Of a DNA stretch of 41,426 nt, positions 36,201 through 41,426 are shown one piece after another. This DNA comes from Salibacterium aidingense DSM 18341 (GTDB taxonomy: Bacteria > Bacillota > Bacilli > Bacillales > Marinococcaceae), in assembly GCF_000429685.1 (NCBI RefSeq), contig NZ_AUCI01000028.1:1-41426 (forward strand), read 5' to 3'. The first letter of the stretch is position 1. Each line of letters starts with the position of its first letter. A model generated the notes under the pieces. That model saw nothing but the letters and a program-made list of their open reading frames with translations. It was not told the origin of the DNA and did no database searches. The translations under genes were made by a program, and so were the position numbers.

Positions 36201-36234
36201 TTGACATCAAGCTGACATAAGGTTCTTTTAAAGT
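36201..36234 (+). promoter_or_regulatory. TGACAT direct-repeat promoter 1
   Basis: TTGACAT (36201-36207) and CTGACAT (36212-36218) repeat with an 11-bp period. Exactly 10 bp later lies TAAAGT (36229-36234), a -10-like element. This is the layout of promoters activated by OmpR/PhoB-type regulators. The same layout occurs at 39949-39982. It drives the repeat-protein gene at 36292. Confidence 0.68.
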
Positions 36235-36291: not shown

Positions 36292-36999
36292 GTGCTATGG
36301 AATAAAAAAGGAAACTATTTACTGGCGTCTGTATTATCCATTAGTATGATCGGTGCAGTGCCAGGCATTGCAGCTGCAGAAAATAGTCCCGTAGATAACG
36401 TAGTCACCAAAGAGGAAGCTCCTCAGGGAGACGCCAGCTTTTCTCAACATCAAGCCAGCCAGCCGTCTGCCTATAAAAGCAGACGAGCCATGAAAACCGA
36501 GGAACTGGAACAGTATGCTGCAGAACTTGGTATTGACACAGAAGACAAGAATATTTATGAAATTTCCCAGGAAGTCAAAGAAGTCGCAGTAAAACAACGA
36601 GCAAAAGAATTAGGAATAAGCACACTGGGAAAGAACCTCAGTACCCTGACAGAAGAAGTCAGAGAAGCTGTTCTAACGGAAAGAGCAGCGGAACTCGGCA
36701 TTGACACCCGCGACAAAGAATTGTCGGAAATCGTGGACGCCGTAAGTGAAGCGGAATTAAAAGCCGAAAGCAAAGAACTGGGCATTGACCCTGAAGGAAA
36801 AGAAGTCCCCCAACTAATCATGGAAGTGAAAGAAAAACAAGCATTACAAGCAGCGGAAGAACTTGGTATAGAGACCAAGGGAAAAAGCATACGACAAATT
36901 TCCGATGAAATCGTAAACGAACATGAGGAAGAAGCTAGAGACATGAACTTCTTTCCCTCAGCAACCCATGATGCTGACCCCTTGCATGCATGGATATAA
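36292..36999 (+). CDS. Secreted protein with five 28-residue repeats
   Basis: A 235-aa exported protein. Signal peptide with basic start and hydrophobic core, cleavage likely after IAAA (about residue 29). A disordered segment (30-70) precedes five back-to-back repeats of exactly 28 residues: 76-103, 104-131, 132-159, 160-187 and 188-215. The repeat consensus is xELGI-D/S/E-T/P-x-D/G-K-x-hydrophobic-x-x-I/L-x-x-E/A-V/I, probably helical pairs. A 20-residue tail ends in HAWI. There is no lipobox, LPxTG or cell-wall domain. The GTG start follows AGGAGGG by seven bases. Controlled by a TGACAT promoter, probably by the two-component system just downstream. Function unknown. Confidence 0.8.
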   Translation: MLWNKKGNYLLASVLSISMIGAVPGIAAAENSPVDNVVTKEEAPQGDASFSQHQASQPSAYKSRRAMKTEELEQYAAELGIDTEDKNIYEISQEVKEVAVKQRAKELGISTLGKNLSTLTEEVREAVLTERAAELGIDTRDKELSEIVDAVSEAELKAESKELGIDPEGKEVPQLIMEVKEKQALQAAEELGIETKGKSIRQISDEIVNEHEEEARDMNFFPSATHDADPLHAWI

Positions 37000-37109
37000 T
37001 AACATGCGGGTTGTCCCCCCAGCAGCCCGCCTTGCTATCTGCAAGCAGCAACAAGTGAACACAGCGATAAAAGCAGCTAACTTTTTTCATTGACCCCCTT
37101 TTTAAATAT

Positions 37110-37145
37110 GGAAATCCCTGATGATGTATCGGGGATTTCCTTTTG
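37110..37145 (+). terminator. Intrinsic terminator before response-regulator gene
   Basis: GGAAATCCC (37110-37118) pairs with GGGATTTCC (37132-37140), followed by TTTTG. It separates the repeat-protein transcript from the two-component genes. The 110 bases between the stop codon and this hairpin hold one G/C-rich stem (37006-37030) without a T-tract. Confidence 0.8.
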
Positions 37146-37202
37146 TATACATAGCTTTATTACCTGTATATCTTATATAATGATGACAAGGAGTGACCTG
37201 AG

Positions 37203-37886
37203 ATGCAGAGAATACTGATCATTGAAGATGAGCCGGCTATCAGTAAAGTGCTTCAGGCTTATTTTCAAAAAGAAGGTTATGAAGTAAAAGCTGTATTACA
37301 CGGGGATGAAGCGCTGCCTGCTTTTCGGGAGTTTAAACCGGAGCTTGCGATTGTAGACGTGATGCTCCCCGGCCGGGACGGGTGGAGCATACTCGAAACA
37401 ATCCGGGAAGAATCTGCCGTTCCTGTTATTATGCTTACGGCCCTCGGAGACGTAGATTACCGCCTCAAAGGCCTCGATGGCGGGGCCGATGATTATATAA
37501 GTAAACCCTTTGATTCAAGCGAAGTGGTAGCACGGGCGAAAGCCGTTCTGCGGCGGTCGGGGCAGGTGCTGCAGGAAGAGGAAGTCAATCATTATGGCAG
37601 TTTAACCATCAATCAAAAAGCACACACGGTAAAACTGAATGGAGCGGATGTTCCGCTGACCCCACGGGATTTATCCCTGCTTCTTTTTTTGGCAAGACAC
37701 CCGAATCAGACCTTTGACCGGGAACAGCTGATTGAGAGGGTTTGGGGGATCGATTATGAAGGAAGTGACCGGGCCGTGGACTTATCGATCAAGCGCATCC
37801 GCAAGTCCCTGCAAAATTGGCCGGAGTCGGAGGGGGAAATAAAGACGCTGCGTGGATTGGGGTATCAATTCTGTGTTTATGAATAA
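37203..37886 (+). CDS. OmpR/PhoB-family response regulator
   Basis: A 227-aa regulator. Receiver domain with EDE (8-10), phospho-acceptor Asp52 in VDVMLPGRDG, Thr in MLTALG and Lys in YISKPFD. The C-terminal winged helix contains LTPRDLSLLLFLARHPNQTFDREQL, the VWG turn and DRAVDLSIKRIRKSL, ending in LRGLGYQF. It probably binds direct repeats with an 11-bp period, exactly the arrangement of the TGACAT promoters on both sides of this gene pair. The downstream kinase gene overlaps its stop by eight bases. Signal unknown; an envelope-stress-type role is a guess. Confidence 0.92.
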   Translation: MQRILIIEDEPAISKVLQAYFQKEGYEVKAVLHGDEALPAFREFKPELAIVDVMLPGRDGWSILETIREESAVPVIMLTALGDVDYRLKGLDGGADDYISKPFDSSEVVARAKAVLRRSGQVLQEEEVNHYGSLTINQKAHTVKLNGADVPLTPRDLSLLLFLARHPNQTFDREQLIERVWGIDYEGSDRAVDLSIKRIRKSLQNWPESEGEIKTLRGLGYQFCVYE

Positions 37887-39303
37887 ATCAGACAAGAAAA
37901 TCTCACTGCTTCGTTATTGGACGACGCGCTATTTAATGACACTTGTCATTGGACTTATTGTAGTAGGTATTGTATCGGTGTTTTGGCTGAGACAGACAAA
38001 CCTTGAACATCGACTGGATATGACCAAATATCTGGGACAGGAAATAGCGGACCGTTTTGTCGAGGAACAATCAGGAGAAACCGTTCCTCAGGAGGGGATT
38101 TTTGATTATATCCAACAGCGGCAGAATATTTTAGATACGGAACTGGATCCTATTATATATATTGTGGACCGTAACGGCCGGATTCTATCCAACCCATTTG
38201 AAAGGAACCCTTTTACGTTTGAAATCTTTCCCGTAAGTATTCTGGAAAATGAAAACAATGTCCAGCGCCTGCGGCTGGAAAGCGGCGAGGAGTCCTATCT
38301 GGTAAAAACACCGATTATGGCGGAGGATGTCATTGTCGGCTGGGTGGTCGTGATTCAGTCAGCCAACCAGCTTACGCAAATGAACGAAGAATTCCGGCTT
38401 CTCGCGATTATGCTGGTTTCTTTGGCACTCATCGGCTGGGCCGTTATTTACGTTTTGTCGCGAAAACTCTCAAGGCCTATCCAGGATGTAGCTACGGCCG
38501 CCAAACATGTTCAGGAACAGGATTATGACTTTACCCTGCCGGCCAACATAAAAGAACAGGAAGTGCATGAACTCGTTCATTCCTTCCGGGAAATGTCCGG
38601 GCGCCTGCAGGAGCTCGAAAAACTTCGCTCGGAGCTTTTGGCCGGAGTGACGCATGAATTAAAAACCCCCGTTACTTCGATGACGGGGCTGATTCAGGCC
38701 GTAAGGGACGACGTCGTAAGTGGAGAAGAAGCGAAAGAATTTCTTGATGTATCCTTAAACGAAGCCAATCGAATGAAAACGATGGTAGCGGATTTATTAG
38801 AATTTAATTCGTTTGCTGCCTACTCGGTGCCGATTTCTAAAGAAGAACATGATATTAATACCCTGCTGAAGGAAATTATCCACCAGTGGGAGGTAGCTAA
38901 CGATGAGGAAACACTGCAGTTATCCCTGCATCTGCTGGAGGACGCTGTCTATGTCAGCGTAGACTCTTTACGGCTCCAACAAATTATCGTCAATCTTTTA
39001 AATAACGCAAAGCAGGCCTTAAAAGGGGAAGGAAACATGGATGCCGTCCTCTATCACAAAGATCCATCCACGATAGGAATAGATATTATAGACAACGGGC
39101 CGGGGATAGCCGAAGAAGAAAAACATCTTATATTCGAACGCTTCTTCCGGGGAGAAAATAAAAAGTATGACACCCACGGCCTGGGACTGGGACTTCCTTT
39201 CAGCAAAATGATTGCCCGCAGTATGGAGGGCGATCTGGTGCTTGCAGAAAGCGCTCCGGGAAGAACTGTCTTCACCCTTGAGCTGCCAAAGCATCAAGAG
39301 TGA
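37879..39303 (+). CDS. HAMP-containing sensor histidine kinase
   Basis: A 474-aa membrane sensor: TM1 near residues 17-40, an extracytoplasmic domain of about 130 residues, TM2 near 170-192, HAMP (to about 245), HisKA with AGVTHELKTPVTSM (His259), and an HATPase with NLLNNAKQAL, IIDNGPGI, FFRGENKKYDTHGLGLGL. The start is the ATG at 37879 inside the regulator's last codons; an in-frame TTG at 37852 would need a longer overlap. Cognate to the OmpR-type regulator. The extracytoplasmic domain resembles the small PAS-like sensors of envelope-monitoring kinases, but the ligand is unknown. Confidence 0.92.
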   Translation: MNKSDKKISLLRYWTTRYLMTLVIGLIVVGIVSVFWLRQTNLEHRLDMTKYLGQEIADRFVEEQSGETVPQEGIFDYIQQRQNILDTELDPIIYIVDRNGRILSNPFERNPFTFEIFPVSILENENNVQRLRLESGEESYLVKTPIMAEDVIVGWVVVIQSANQLTQMNEEFRLLAIMLVSLALIGWAVIYVLSRKLSRPIQDVATAAKHVQEQDYDFTLPANIKEQEVHELVHSFREMSGRLQELEKLRSELLAGVTHELKTPVTSMTGLIQAVRDDVVSGEEAKEFLDVSLNEANRMKTMVADLLEFNSFAAYSVPISKEEHDINTLLKEIIHQWEVANDEETLQLSLHLLEDAVYVSVDSLRLQQIIVNLLNNAKQALKGEGNMDAVLYHKDPSTIGIDIIDNGPGIAEEEKHLIFERFFRGENKKYDTHGLGLGLPFSKMIARSMEGDLVLAESAPGRTVFTLELPKHQE

Positions 39304-39317
39304 AGACGTCCCAGGGT

Positions 39318-39890
39318 TCAGAGTTGGAGCAGCTGGTTGGTCAATTCATATACGACCAGTTTTTGATAACCGCTGTCCTTCCCATACCTCGCATGAATCC
39401 CTTCATACGCAGCCTTTTTGGCTTCTTCGGCCTGGGGATCGTCCGGCGCATAGTTCTGCCGCTTAAATTCGGTCATTGGTTCCTGGATGTATGCAGGACG
39501 AGGTCCCCATGTGAACAGGACATCTCCCCCTGGATTTGTGACAATTACTTTCGGTACGGAACGGCCGCCCATAGTTAAAAAATGTCCCATTAAATCATCG
39601 TGCTTCTCCATGATAAATAGCTCAACAGGAATATCCGCCTCCTTCATAACCTCAAGCACCGGTCCGAGGCTGCGGTGAACGTCCCCGCACCAGTCACCGG
39701 CAAGAACCGCACAGCGAAGGCTGGTGTTGTCTTTCAAGGGAGCAAGGGCTTCCCGATCATGGTCGTCCCAGGTGAATAGTTCGTGCCATTGATCAAGTGT
39801 GGCGCGATAGCGATGATTCATGCTTTCCATAAATTCCTGCGGCGTCACGCCGTGTCCAAGCTTTTCTTTTATATTGGCCGATGTTATCAT
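39318..39890 (-). CDS. Thioredoxin-like family protein with degenerate CxxC
   Basis: A 190-aa cytoplasmic thioredoxin-fold protein. The active-site region reads AGDWCGDVHRS: Cys68 is kept but the second Cys is Val71, so it cannot form the usual CxxC disulfide. SVPKVIVTNPGG matches the cis-Pro loop. Such single-cysteine proteins may act on bacillithiol-mixed disulfides or as redox-linked chaperones; the function here is not established. GGAGGG precedes the ATG. Convergent with the kinase gene, with only 14 bases between their stops. Confidence 0.78.
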   Translation of the reverse strand: MITSANIKEKLGHGVTPQEFMESMNHRYRATLDQWHELFTWDDHDREALAPLKDNTSLRCAVLAGDWCGDVHRSLGPVLEVMKEADIPVELFIMEKHDDLMGHFLTMGGRSVPKVIVTNPGGDVLFTWGPRPAYIQEPMTEFKRQNYAPDDPQAEEAKKAAYEGIHARYGKDSGYQKLVVYELTNQLLQL

Positions 39891-39948
39891 TTTATCCCTC
39901 CTCTATTGGAGTTTATCATGAAAGAAAAAAATTAGAAAAAATGTCGTT

Positions 39949-39982
39949 CTGACATTGGGCTGACATATAAATCTCATAAGAT
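39949..39982 (+). promoter_or_regulatory. TGACAT direct-repeat promoter 2
   Basis: CTGACAT at 39949-39955 and again at 39960-39966 (11-bp period), exactly 10 bp, then TAAGAT (39977-39982) as -10. The same architecture as at 36201-36234. Expected transcription start near 39989. Confidence 0.68.
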
Positions 39983-39988
39983 GAAATT

Positions 39989-40212
39989 GTAAGGATAGAA
40001 GACATATTACACACTATCCTGTCCCCCTTCTTATAAGGAGACAAACAAGCATAAAGGACCCTTCTTCTGGTGAACATGATAATTCCTCCTTTTAACAGCT
40101 GATCAGGCAGAGGTCAGCTATCGACTGATTTTCGCCATGAAGTAAATGCAAGCCCAAATGTCTCCTTATAATCATAAATCCCCGATGGCAGCGATCGGGG
40201 ATTTATTTTTGT
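39989..40212 (+). ncRNA. Candidate structured small RNA or regulated leader
   Basis: The 376-base stretch without an assigned gene (39891-40266) holds a promoter-to-terminator unit of about 220 bases. Elements in order: hairpin AGGATAG/CTATCCT (39992-39998 with 40014-40020), a C-rich linker GTCCCCCTTC (40021-40030), a 13-bp perfect long-range stem (40031-40043 with 40159-40171), an enclosed hairpin AGCTGA/TCAGCT (40097-40102 with 40114-40119), and a strong terminator. No plausible plus-strand ORF is present. The C-rich unpaired segment next to hairpins is typical of Firmicute sRNAs that pair with Shine-Dalgarno sites. Alternatively it is an attenuated leader of the YrhK-like gene. Confidence 0.5.
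40174..40212 (+). terminator. Strong intrinsic terminator
   Basis: A 13-bp perfect stem, ATAAATCCCCGAT (40174-40186) with ATCGGGGATTTAT (40194-40206), seven-base loop, then TTTTTG. Confidence 0.9.
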
Positions 40213-40266
40213 TTTATCCAGGAATGATACCGGGAAGATTTATTAGGAAAGGGGAGGCAAAGATAG

Positions 40267-40551
40267 ATGAGTGAAAAAAGGACCACGGAAAACTATGTGG
40301 ATATCTCACTCGGACGTTATGAGTTCTTTGTTCAGAAAAAATATACCATCCTTCATACCCTCAATGATTTTCTGCTTGGACTGTGGTTTTTCATTGGAAG
40401 CTTCTTCTTTTTTTCAGAACCGTTAAAGAGCATTGGAATTTGGCTGTTTGTCATCGGAAGTTTTCAGCTTATGGTCCGCCCGGCCATACGGCTGGTTCAT
40501 GATTTTCATTTGCAAAAACACATCGAAAAACAGCACAAAAATGATGATTGA
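40267..40551 (+). CDS. YrhK-like membrane protein
   Basis: A 94-aa protein with two adjacent hydrophobic helices (about residues 36-52 and 56-72) joined by a short loop. It has a YEFFVQKKYTILHTLNDF start and RLVHDFHLQKH end, matching the small YrhK domain known from Bacillus. No reaction is known for it. GGAAAGGGGAGG precedes the ATG. It follows the strong terminator by about 55 bases and precedes the FAD protein by 62 bases, likely one transcript. It may depend on read-through from the TGACAT promoter or on an unseen one. Confidence 0.75.
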   Translation: MSEKRTTENYVDISLGRYEFFVQKKYTILHTLNDFLLGLWFFIGSFFFFSEPLKSIGIWLFVIGSFQLMVRPAIRLVHDFHLQKHIEKQHKNDD

Positions 40552-41263: not shown

Positions 41264-41283
41264 TGTATTGTTCTATCGCTGCG

Positions 41284-41392
41284 TCAAAATAGGTCGCTTT
41301 CCGCGGGCACGGCTCGAGCCTCCTCGGAAGAAAGCCACTTCCTGCGGGGTCTCGAGACTCGTGCTTTTCCCGCAGGAGTCGACCTATTTTGA
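41284..41392. repeat. Large imperfect palindromic element
   Basis: Outer arms TCAAAATAGGTCG (41284-41296) and CGACCTATTTTGA (41380-41392) are a perfect 13-bp inverted repeat. Inside are GC-rich imperfect arms, CCGCGGGCACGG (left) and CGTGCTTTTCCCGCAGG (right), and CTCGAGCC/CTCGAGAC near the centre. I recall similar GC-rich palindromes as dispersed multicopy repeats in bacilli. No ORF. Confidence 0.6.
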
Positions 41393-41426
41393 CTCCGCTG
41401 AATGGACGTTCTTGTTATATAAACCC

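Follow-up and report, generated by a model that had tools for sequence, protein, structure and literature searches.

Does the gene-free interval beside a two-component operon in this genome give rise to a regulatory RNA, and if so, is it an independent transcript that would act on other mRNAs? We addressed this question for positions 39989-40212 of the window, by which we mean the whole 41,426-nt stretch of DNA that was analysed and which is one of the contigs of the 4.4-Mb source genome (G000). As far as sequence comparison can tell, the analysis supports an RNA that is structured, non-coding and regulated by a two-component system, and that carries a C-rich single-stranded element. This RNA is probably an independent, trans-acting transcript of ~220 nt with an anti-Shine-Dalgarno element, which would be activated by the neighbouring response regulator as part of an envelope or secretion-stress regulon; its transcription, mode of action and targets are what we infer from the evidence below. 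The features concerned are collected in Table 1.

Table 1. Features of the two-component locus, the predicted RNA and related predicted transcripts. Positions are those of the window unless a locus is named.
Feature	Position	Strand	Remarks
Second box with -10 element (TAAAGT)	36202..36234	+	Upstream of the two-component operon; -10 at +11
Secreted-looking repeat protein	36292..36999	+	First gene after the operon box; ELGIDTxxK-type repeats
Second C-run RNA element	37080..37148	+	Predicted; 3' UTR of 36292-36999: CATTGACCCCCTTTTTAAATA, then a terminator-like hairpin
OmpR-family response regulator	37203..37886	+	Putative activator of the RNA
Histidine kinase (HAMP, HisKA, HATPase_c)	37852..39303	+	
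Response-regulator box TGACATTGGGCTGACA	39950..39965	+	TGACA direct repeat with 11-bp period; perfect before 7/7 RNAs
-10 element TAAGAT	39977..39982	+	Exactly 11 nt past the box; TANNNT at +11 in 7/7 RNA promoters
Predicted small RNA, ~220 nt	39989..40212	+	Start placed by -10 spacing, end by terminator
5' hairpin AGGATAG/CTATCCT	39992-39998 / 40014-40020	+	Predicted in 7/7 homologues; g3 versions slightly longer
Putative first targeting element, single-stranded C-run GTCCCCCTTC	40021-40030	+	
Long-range perfect 13-bp stem TTATAAGGAGACA / TGTCTCCTTATAA	40031-40043 / 40159-40171	+	Closes exactly 115 nt
Anti-translation-initiation element CATGATAATTCCTCCTT	40075..40091	+	Complement of AAGGAGG-spacer-ATG
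Inner hairpin AGCTGATC/GGTCAGCT	40097-40104 / 40112-40119	+	
Conserved stretch TTTTCGCCATGAAG	40129..40142	+	TTTTCGCnATGAA in 6/6 aligned sequences
Intrinsic terminator with T-rich tail	40174..40215	+	13-pair stem 40174-40206
g11 stretch	L117 (G013) 1092-1570; same place in G019, G024, G027, G028		One CCCCC in terminator loop

Homologues and architecture of the predicted RNA

A preliminary description had proposed that the interval is free of genes and contains a 5' hairpin, an unpaired CCCCC, a 13-bp stem over 115 nt, an inner hairpin and a 13-pair terminator. All of these parts were recovered at the same positions, and no ORF of at least 80 aa is present at 39989-40212. A BLASTN search with the interval in 101 genomes, G000 included, revealed relatives in three genomes of the same genus (G001-G003; genus g1) and in two genomes of genus g3 (G015 and G021), and matches of about 30-35 bp only in three further genomes. 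A sequence-only core model built from the six sequences, and hence bound to match them, reached E ≤ 1.2e-20 in its six source genomes when 29 family genomes were scanned; the other 23 gave 22 weak matches (E of 0.0069 or worse) and, in one genome, none. The weak match in G005, which has a regulator box ~110 nt upstream, is a diverged seventh copy. The homologous RNA is thereby present in seven of the 29 family genomes, and was undetected in eight of the 15 family genomes that bear the regulator. The order of the elements is the same in all seven: box, 5' hairpin, unpaired CCCCC, left arm, anti-Shine-Dalgarno element, right arm and terminator.

The long stem is retained in all seven homologues. 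When the arms alone were counted, in five distinct versions from the seven genomes, 90.8% of the cells pair and 5 of the 13 pairs have changed on both sides, compensatory changes that bear out the stem as it had been proposed. This number of two-sided changes was reached by 2 of 500 shuffles and slid registers attained at most three, with the limitation that the unslid register has an advantage, the structure having been derived from one of the sequences. Further pair types were not above the shuffles (194 of 500 reach the count), and pairs at the outer ends are broken in some species; as the genomes are related, independent covariation events are few. The arms of the inner hairpin co-vary as well between species of g1 (CUGA/UCAG to CCGG/CCGG); one outer pair is mismatched in G015, and a counterpart in G005 was not visible by eye. 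The stretch at 40129..40142 is reduced in G005 to TTTTCGCC, which runs into the right stem arm. The architecture of the RNA, its covariation and the shared promoter described below are demonstrated at the level of sequence.

The stretch 39950-40230 folds with a z-score of -3.4, and 0 of 200 dinucleotide shuffles were as good. When the seven homologues were trimmed to the transcript, their z-scores ranged from -3.2 to -5.6, values to which the terminator adds, and shuffles that fold as well numbered 0 of 100 in six homologues and 1 of 100 in G001. The 5' 120 nt alone are unexceptional (z = +0.47), indicating that most of the fold signal resides in the long stem, inner hairpin and terminator. 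In the fold model, the CCCCC is unpaired with a probability of 0.96-1.00 in all seven RNAs.

A terminator-like stem with a T-rich tail ends all seven homologous sequences, and in G005 it occupies the same place with an unrelated stem sequence. By count, terminator-like sites are unremarkable (1 found versus 1.3 expected from shuffles of the 1.4-kb region), and the case for the terminator is therefore carried by its conservation among relatives. That conservation also bears on the question whether the element is a cis-acting leader or attenuator, in which the terminator would control read-through into the downstream yrhK and thioredoxin-reductase-like genes. A thioredoxin-reductase-like gene does follow the RNA in all seven genomes. 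However, in G008 and G016 the same gene is preceded by neither box nor RNA, no yrhK was found beside the RNA in the three g3 genomes, every copy ends in the terminator-like stem and T-rich tail, and the best-conserved part is the mostly unpaired anti-Shine-Dalgarno stretch. We therefore regard a cis-acting leader as unlikely and favour an independent RNA.

The promoter is shared with the two-component operon

The predicted promoter of the RNA consists of a response-regulator box at 39950-39965 and the -10 element TAAGAT. Together, the positions of box and -10 element place the start of the RNA at about 39989-39991, in agreement with the coordinate given before. A scan for generic sigma-70 promoters detected none at the RNA and one site elsewhere in 1.4 kb (2.1 expected); a generic promoter at the RNA was discarded, and the regulator box takes its place. 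The promoter signature reads TGACAT-N4-CTGACA-N11-TANNNT.

We found the box with TANNNT at +11 at all seven RNA promoters and at all seven operon promoters of the same genomes, the operon box of G002 having one mismatch. Elsewhere in the seven RNA-bearing genomes there are six further perfect boxes, one of which has TANNNT at +11. Within G000, the pattern TGACATNNNNCTGACA is matched perfectly at three places, namely at the RNA, at 36202 and at C10:1165; the last was rejected as a promoter because it has no -10 element at +11. Among the family genomes, the operon is preceded by the box in 14 (13 perfect boxes, and G002 with one mismatch). Perfect boxes with a -10 element amount to 21 sites in the 29 family genomes, of which 13 belong to the operon, 7 to the RNA and 1 lies elsewhere, before a VTC-domain gene in G001. 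Of the 15 genomes that have a close regulator orthologue (E ≤ 1e-70), 14 contain such sites, compared to none of the 14 others. Allowing one mismatch yielded 22 additional sites, five of them in regulator-less genomes (one each in 5 of the 14), compared to 2 sites in all for the reversed-pattern control. This distribution makes a good case for assigning the box to the regulator.

The regulator also led to at least 80 related loci, of which we examined 11 from named Bacillales (L304-L313 and L341). A perfect box is found nearby in nine of them. In the Domibacillus locus (L311), the sole box has two mismatches and is followed by TAAACT at +11; in Brevibacillus (L313), whose regulator is 52% identical, there is no box near the regulator. 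The box precedes a similar secreted protein in 5 of the 11 loci, and the sequences TGATAATTCCTCC and CCCCCTTTT are absent from all 11. Overall, control of the RNA by the adjacent two-component system, as suggested in the preliminary description, is well supported by the box that the RNA and the adjacent operon have in common, and this regulator is the protein that would bind it.

The predicted regulon points to envelope or secretion stress

The first gene of the operon encodes a protein without an NCBIfam match and with a Pfam match below cutoff only. Relatives of this protein adjoin the regulator in several Bacillales; it is possibly a sensor partner or a feedback protein of the system. Beyond the operon and the RNA, a one-mismatch promoter precedes a gene with Trypsin_2 and PDZ domains (HtrA-like) in all four g1 genomes; the Pfam search was run on the G000 copy, to which the other three are 77-80% identical. 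Two other one-mismatch sites with a -10 element in G000 lie before a SurA_N-domain lipoprotein gene and an oxidoreductase-like ORF. Comparable arrangements were seen in named Bacillales, where a perfect box 3' of the kinase is followed by an HtrA-like gene in Siminovitchia (L312) and by a short ORF and then an HtrA-like gene in Halalkalibacter (L341). In three Peribacillus loci, the gene behind the perfect box 3' of the kinase belongs to the ArsC family in the one case tested. The HtrA-like gene in the predicted regulon suggests envelope or secretion stress, as for CiaRH, and the regulon as a whole looks like a response to such stress.

A conserved element complementary to translation start regions

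The most conserved element of the RNA is ATGATAATTCCTCCTT, which is identical in all seven copies and lies about 50 nt past the C-run. Its mean unpaired probability in the fold model is 0.61-0.75 in the seven RNAs (0.64 in G000), i.e. it is partly paired. Read in reverse complement, it gives a near-ideal Shine-Dalgarno sequence with spacer, extended by the start codon in six of the seven; the anti-AUG part is lost in G005 (AAGGAGGAATTATCATT).

Conservation of this kind might also arise from coding, and two such readings were considered. In the first, ATGATAATTCCTCC is the start of a tiny peptide (MIIPP...), so that the transcript would be a leader-peptide mRNA or a dual-function RNA. The codons ATG-ATA-ATT-CCT-CCT are indeed in frame in all seven copies, but the predicted lengths vary from 5 to 29 aa and no well-conserved Shine-Dalgarno sequence lies upstream. 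Moreover, all 16 nt are invariant, third positions included, which fits base pairing better than coding and makes the peptide very unlikely. In the second, the conserved block belongs to a minus-strand gene (AAGGAGGAATTATCATG, then an ORF) and the plus-strand RNA is incidental. Here, the Shine-Dalgarno sequence, spacer and ATG are perfect, and in the four genomes of g1 the frame stays open over 34-53 codons; yet in G015 and G021 the frame starting at 40075-40077 has three codons and then a stop, and the start codon is the part that G005 has lost. As the promoter box and the T-tail of the terminator both point to the plus strand, we consider a minus-strand gene extremely improbable.

The two exposed elements of the RNA suit the blocking of ribosome loading, and the following course of events can be proposed. 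The OmpR-type regulator would bind TGACAT-N4-CTGACA and fire from the TANNNT located 11 nt downstream, driving its own operon and the HtrA-like quality-control protease as well as the RNA. The RNA would expose CCCCCUU and AUGAUAAUUCCUCCUU between the 5' hairpin, the long closing stem and the terminator, and these elements would base-pair with target mRNAs at their Shine-Dalgarno and start region, with the effect that ribosome loading is blocked. Under stress, the synthesis of chosen proteins would fall while the protease is made. Alternatively, the RNA driven by the regulator could be a sponge or a protein-binding RNA that does not act on mRNAs directly. Its folded body is long, and the AAGGAG of the left stem arm could pair with C/U-rich RNAs, including the C-run RNA in the 3' UTR of the operon. 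This arm, however, is predicted to be paired in all seven RNAs, whereas the C-run and much of the anti-Shine-Dalgarno element are exposed, and such a role appears improbable to us compared to direct pairing with mRNAs.

With regard to the mRNAs that might be affected, the best lead is a candidate gene which we take to be CalY/TasA-like from its protein sequence. One of its two copies has the start region RAGGAGGAATTATYATG in each of G000, G001 and G002. A search for homologues passed none in G003, G005, G015 and G021, with a distant relative in G015. The predicted duplex energies are -19.3 to -32.2 in genomes with the RNA (three copies) and -18.8 to -30.3 in those without it (17 copies), 4 of the 24 loci given having yielded no start region. 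Since these ranges overlap, the assignment of the CalY/TasA-like gene as a target is left open. Further predicted targets are genes for what are presumably SLH-domain proteins, a GntR regulator (G000 and G003) and several solute-binding lipoproteins, names that we again assigned from sequence. In G000, the CalY/TasA-like start region is on C43 and the GntR regulator at C1:16875. No target common to all seven RNA-bearing genomes was found. Exported proteins are not clearly enriched among the candidates (21 of 88, compared to 6 of 35 genes of the window when a crude rule is applied; 18 of 106 loci without an ORF of at least 40 aa were dropped, and RNA loci had been left out beforehand). Start regions of the AGGAGG type are common, and pairing predictions are weakly specific for this reason. 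Likewise, AAAAGGGGG start regions were dismissed as targets of the C-run because they are too common, with 50 in G000 compared to 12 for the reversed pattern among the matches listed.

A second C-run RNA and other predicted transcripts

The 3' UTR of the first operon gene contains another C-run. A run of at least five C followed by a terminator-like hairpin is present in all 10 aligned sequences, which come from 10 of the 15 genomes that bear the regulator. Although similar in appearance, the terminators of the two window RNAs match only weakly (78% over 35 bp, E of 2.4). In G004, no relative of the protein gene was found at the operon site, which retains the C-run and the hairpin: a two-mismatch box with TATATT at +11, a short stretch with a C-run and a terminator are located directly before the regulator. 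In five closely related genomes of g11, a perfect box stands before a conserved stretch of ~450 nt, in which there are three CCCCC runs as well as a terminator. An open frame of ~62 codons runs through the terminator in four of these five, and G027 is without it; the ~450-nt stretch is probably non-coding.

These cases raise the possibility that the regulator box precedes differing C-run RNAs across genera, i.e. the 220-nt RNA in g1 and g3, the 3'-UTR element in g1, g3 and g6, the short RNA in G004 and the ~450-nt stretch in g11. The two RNAs of the window would then be sibling riboregulators that share CCCCCUU, convergent with the pairs CiaR/csRNA and LisRK/LhrC. We put this forward tentatively and consider it rather doubtful, given that the likeness of the terminators is not significant and that 4 of the 5 g11 stretches share the frame. 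It is to the same degree uncertain that one RNA would be mRNA-derived and the other stand-alone, with both serving the secretion-stress response.

Two other sequences came to our attention. At about 41270-41400 of the window, near the contig end, there is a long imperfect palindrome with AAAATAGGTCG ... CGACCTATTTT, which by reading resembles a repeated mobile element. Additionally, an identical AAAAGGGGGTTTTCCTATG block is present in two genera (G000:C7:49838 (L205), G005:C23:201315, G015:C1:1106682 and G021:C5:72768), and the ORF behind it in G005 has just 14 codons; the block could be an unrelated conserved RNA.

Comparison with known RNA systems

None of the 4227 Rfam families, RsaE among them, matched the window at its gathering score. 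At E up to 5, nine unrelated families appeared below threshold for 39890-40280, none of them credible. In the loci of five relatives, only the Bacillaceae-1 RNA was found (RF01690, 51.9 bits), which lies away from the RNA in G003 (L123, 923-990), between a DASS-transporter gene and the operon box; the window is without it.

The preliminary description had compared the RNA to RsaE/RoxS. This comparison holds for the way of working, as both are small RNAs of Firmicutes with a C-rich single-stranded element, and it fails for the family, since the RNA has no Rfam match at gathering score. RoxS is reportedly regulated by nitric oxide, and it differs from the RNA described here in regulator, length and architecture. 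Because the most conserved element is the anti-Shine-Dalgarno stretch and not the C-run, the csRNAs of CiaR and LhrC are the closer parallels.

The CiaR-dependent csRNAs of streptococci have a TTTAAG-N5-TTTAAG promoter and a length of 51-202 nt (PMC3091779), and in pneumococcus CiaR controls htrA and the csRNAs alike (PMC4507080). The predicted RNA is similar in its direct-repeat promoter site with an 11-bp period, in an unpaired stretch complementary to the Shine-Dalgarno sequence and AUG that is flanked by stem-loops, and in having htrA in the same regulon, here by promoter site. It differs in the box (TGACAT-N4-CTGACA) and in length, the stretch delimited by the 5' hairpin and the terminator measuring 210-255 nt in six genomes; it further has an extra long-range closing stem, occurs in Bacillales, and is represented by one copy plus the 3'-UTR element instead of several similar copies.

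LhrC1-5 of Listeria comprise five copies, each of which has three redundant UCCC sites, and lapB is a known target (PMC4132741). LhrC resembles the present RNA as a two-component-controlled envelope-stress RNA whose CU-rich single-stranded sites are proposed to cover Shine-Dalgarno regions, and differs from it in structure, in promoter and in having a known target, lapB. The RNA described here is predicted to expose a single UCCCCC linker and a single UUCCUCCUU stretch, and three UCCC sites together were not observed in it.

In Bacillus, the secretion-stress system CssRS exerts two-component control over HtrA-type proteases (PMC6057675); by its promoter site, an HtrA-type protease would likewise belong to the regulon found here. 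Literature searches, which covered open-licence papers, brought up none on this RNA, whether for Bacillus or Firmicutes small RNAs linked to secretion stress or CssRS/HtrA, or for C-rich response-regulator RNAs in alkaliphiles. In view of the differing csRNA promoter and size features and the missing Rfam match, we assign the RNA to a new family within a functional class that is already known.

Implications

The signature TGACAT-N4-CTGACA-N11-TANNNT is a ready predictor of the regulon. Sigma-E in enteric bacteria recruits translation-blocking RNAs, and the present locus would make testable the idea that envelope-stress systems of Gram-positive bacteria likewise do so repeatedly. If our reading is true, it would add a further pair of a Firmicute envelope-stress sensor and an anti-Shine-Dalgarno RNA beside the CiaR-csRNAs and LisRK-LhrC, and it would provide the Bacillales with an RNA family, without an Rfam match, that is attached to an HtrA-controlling two-component system.
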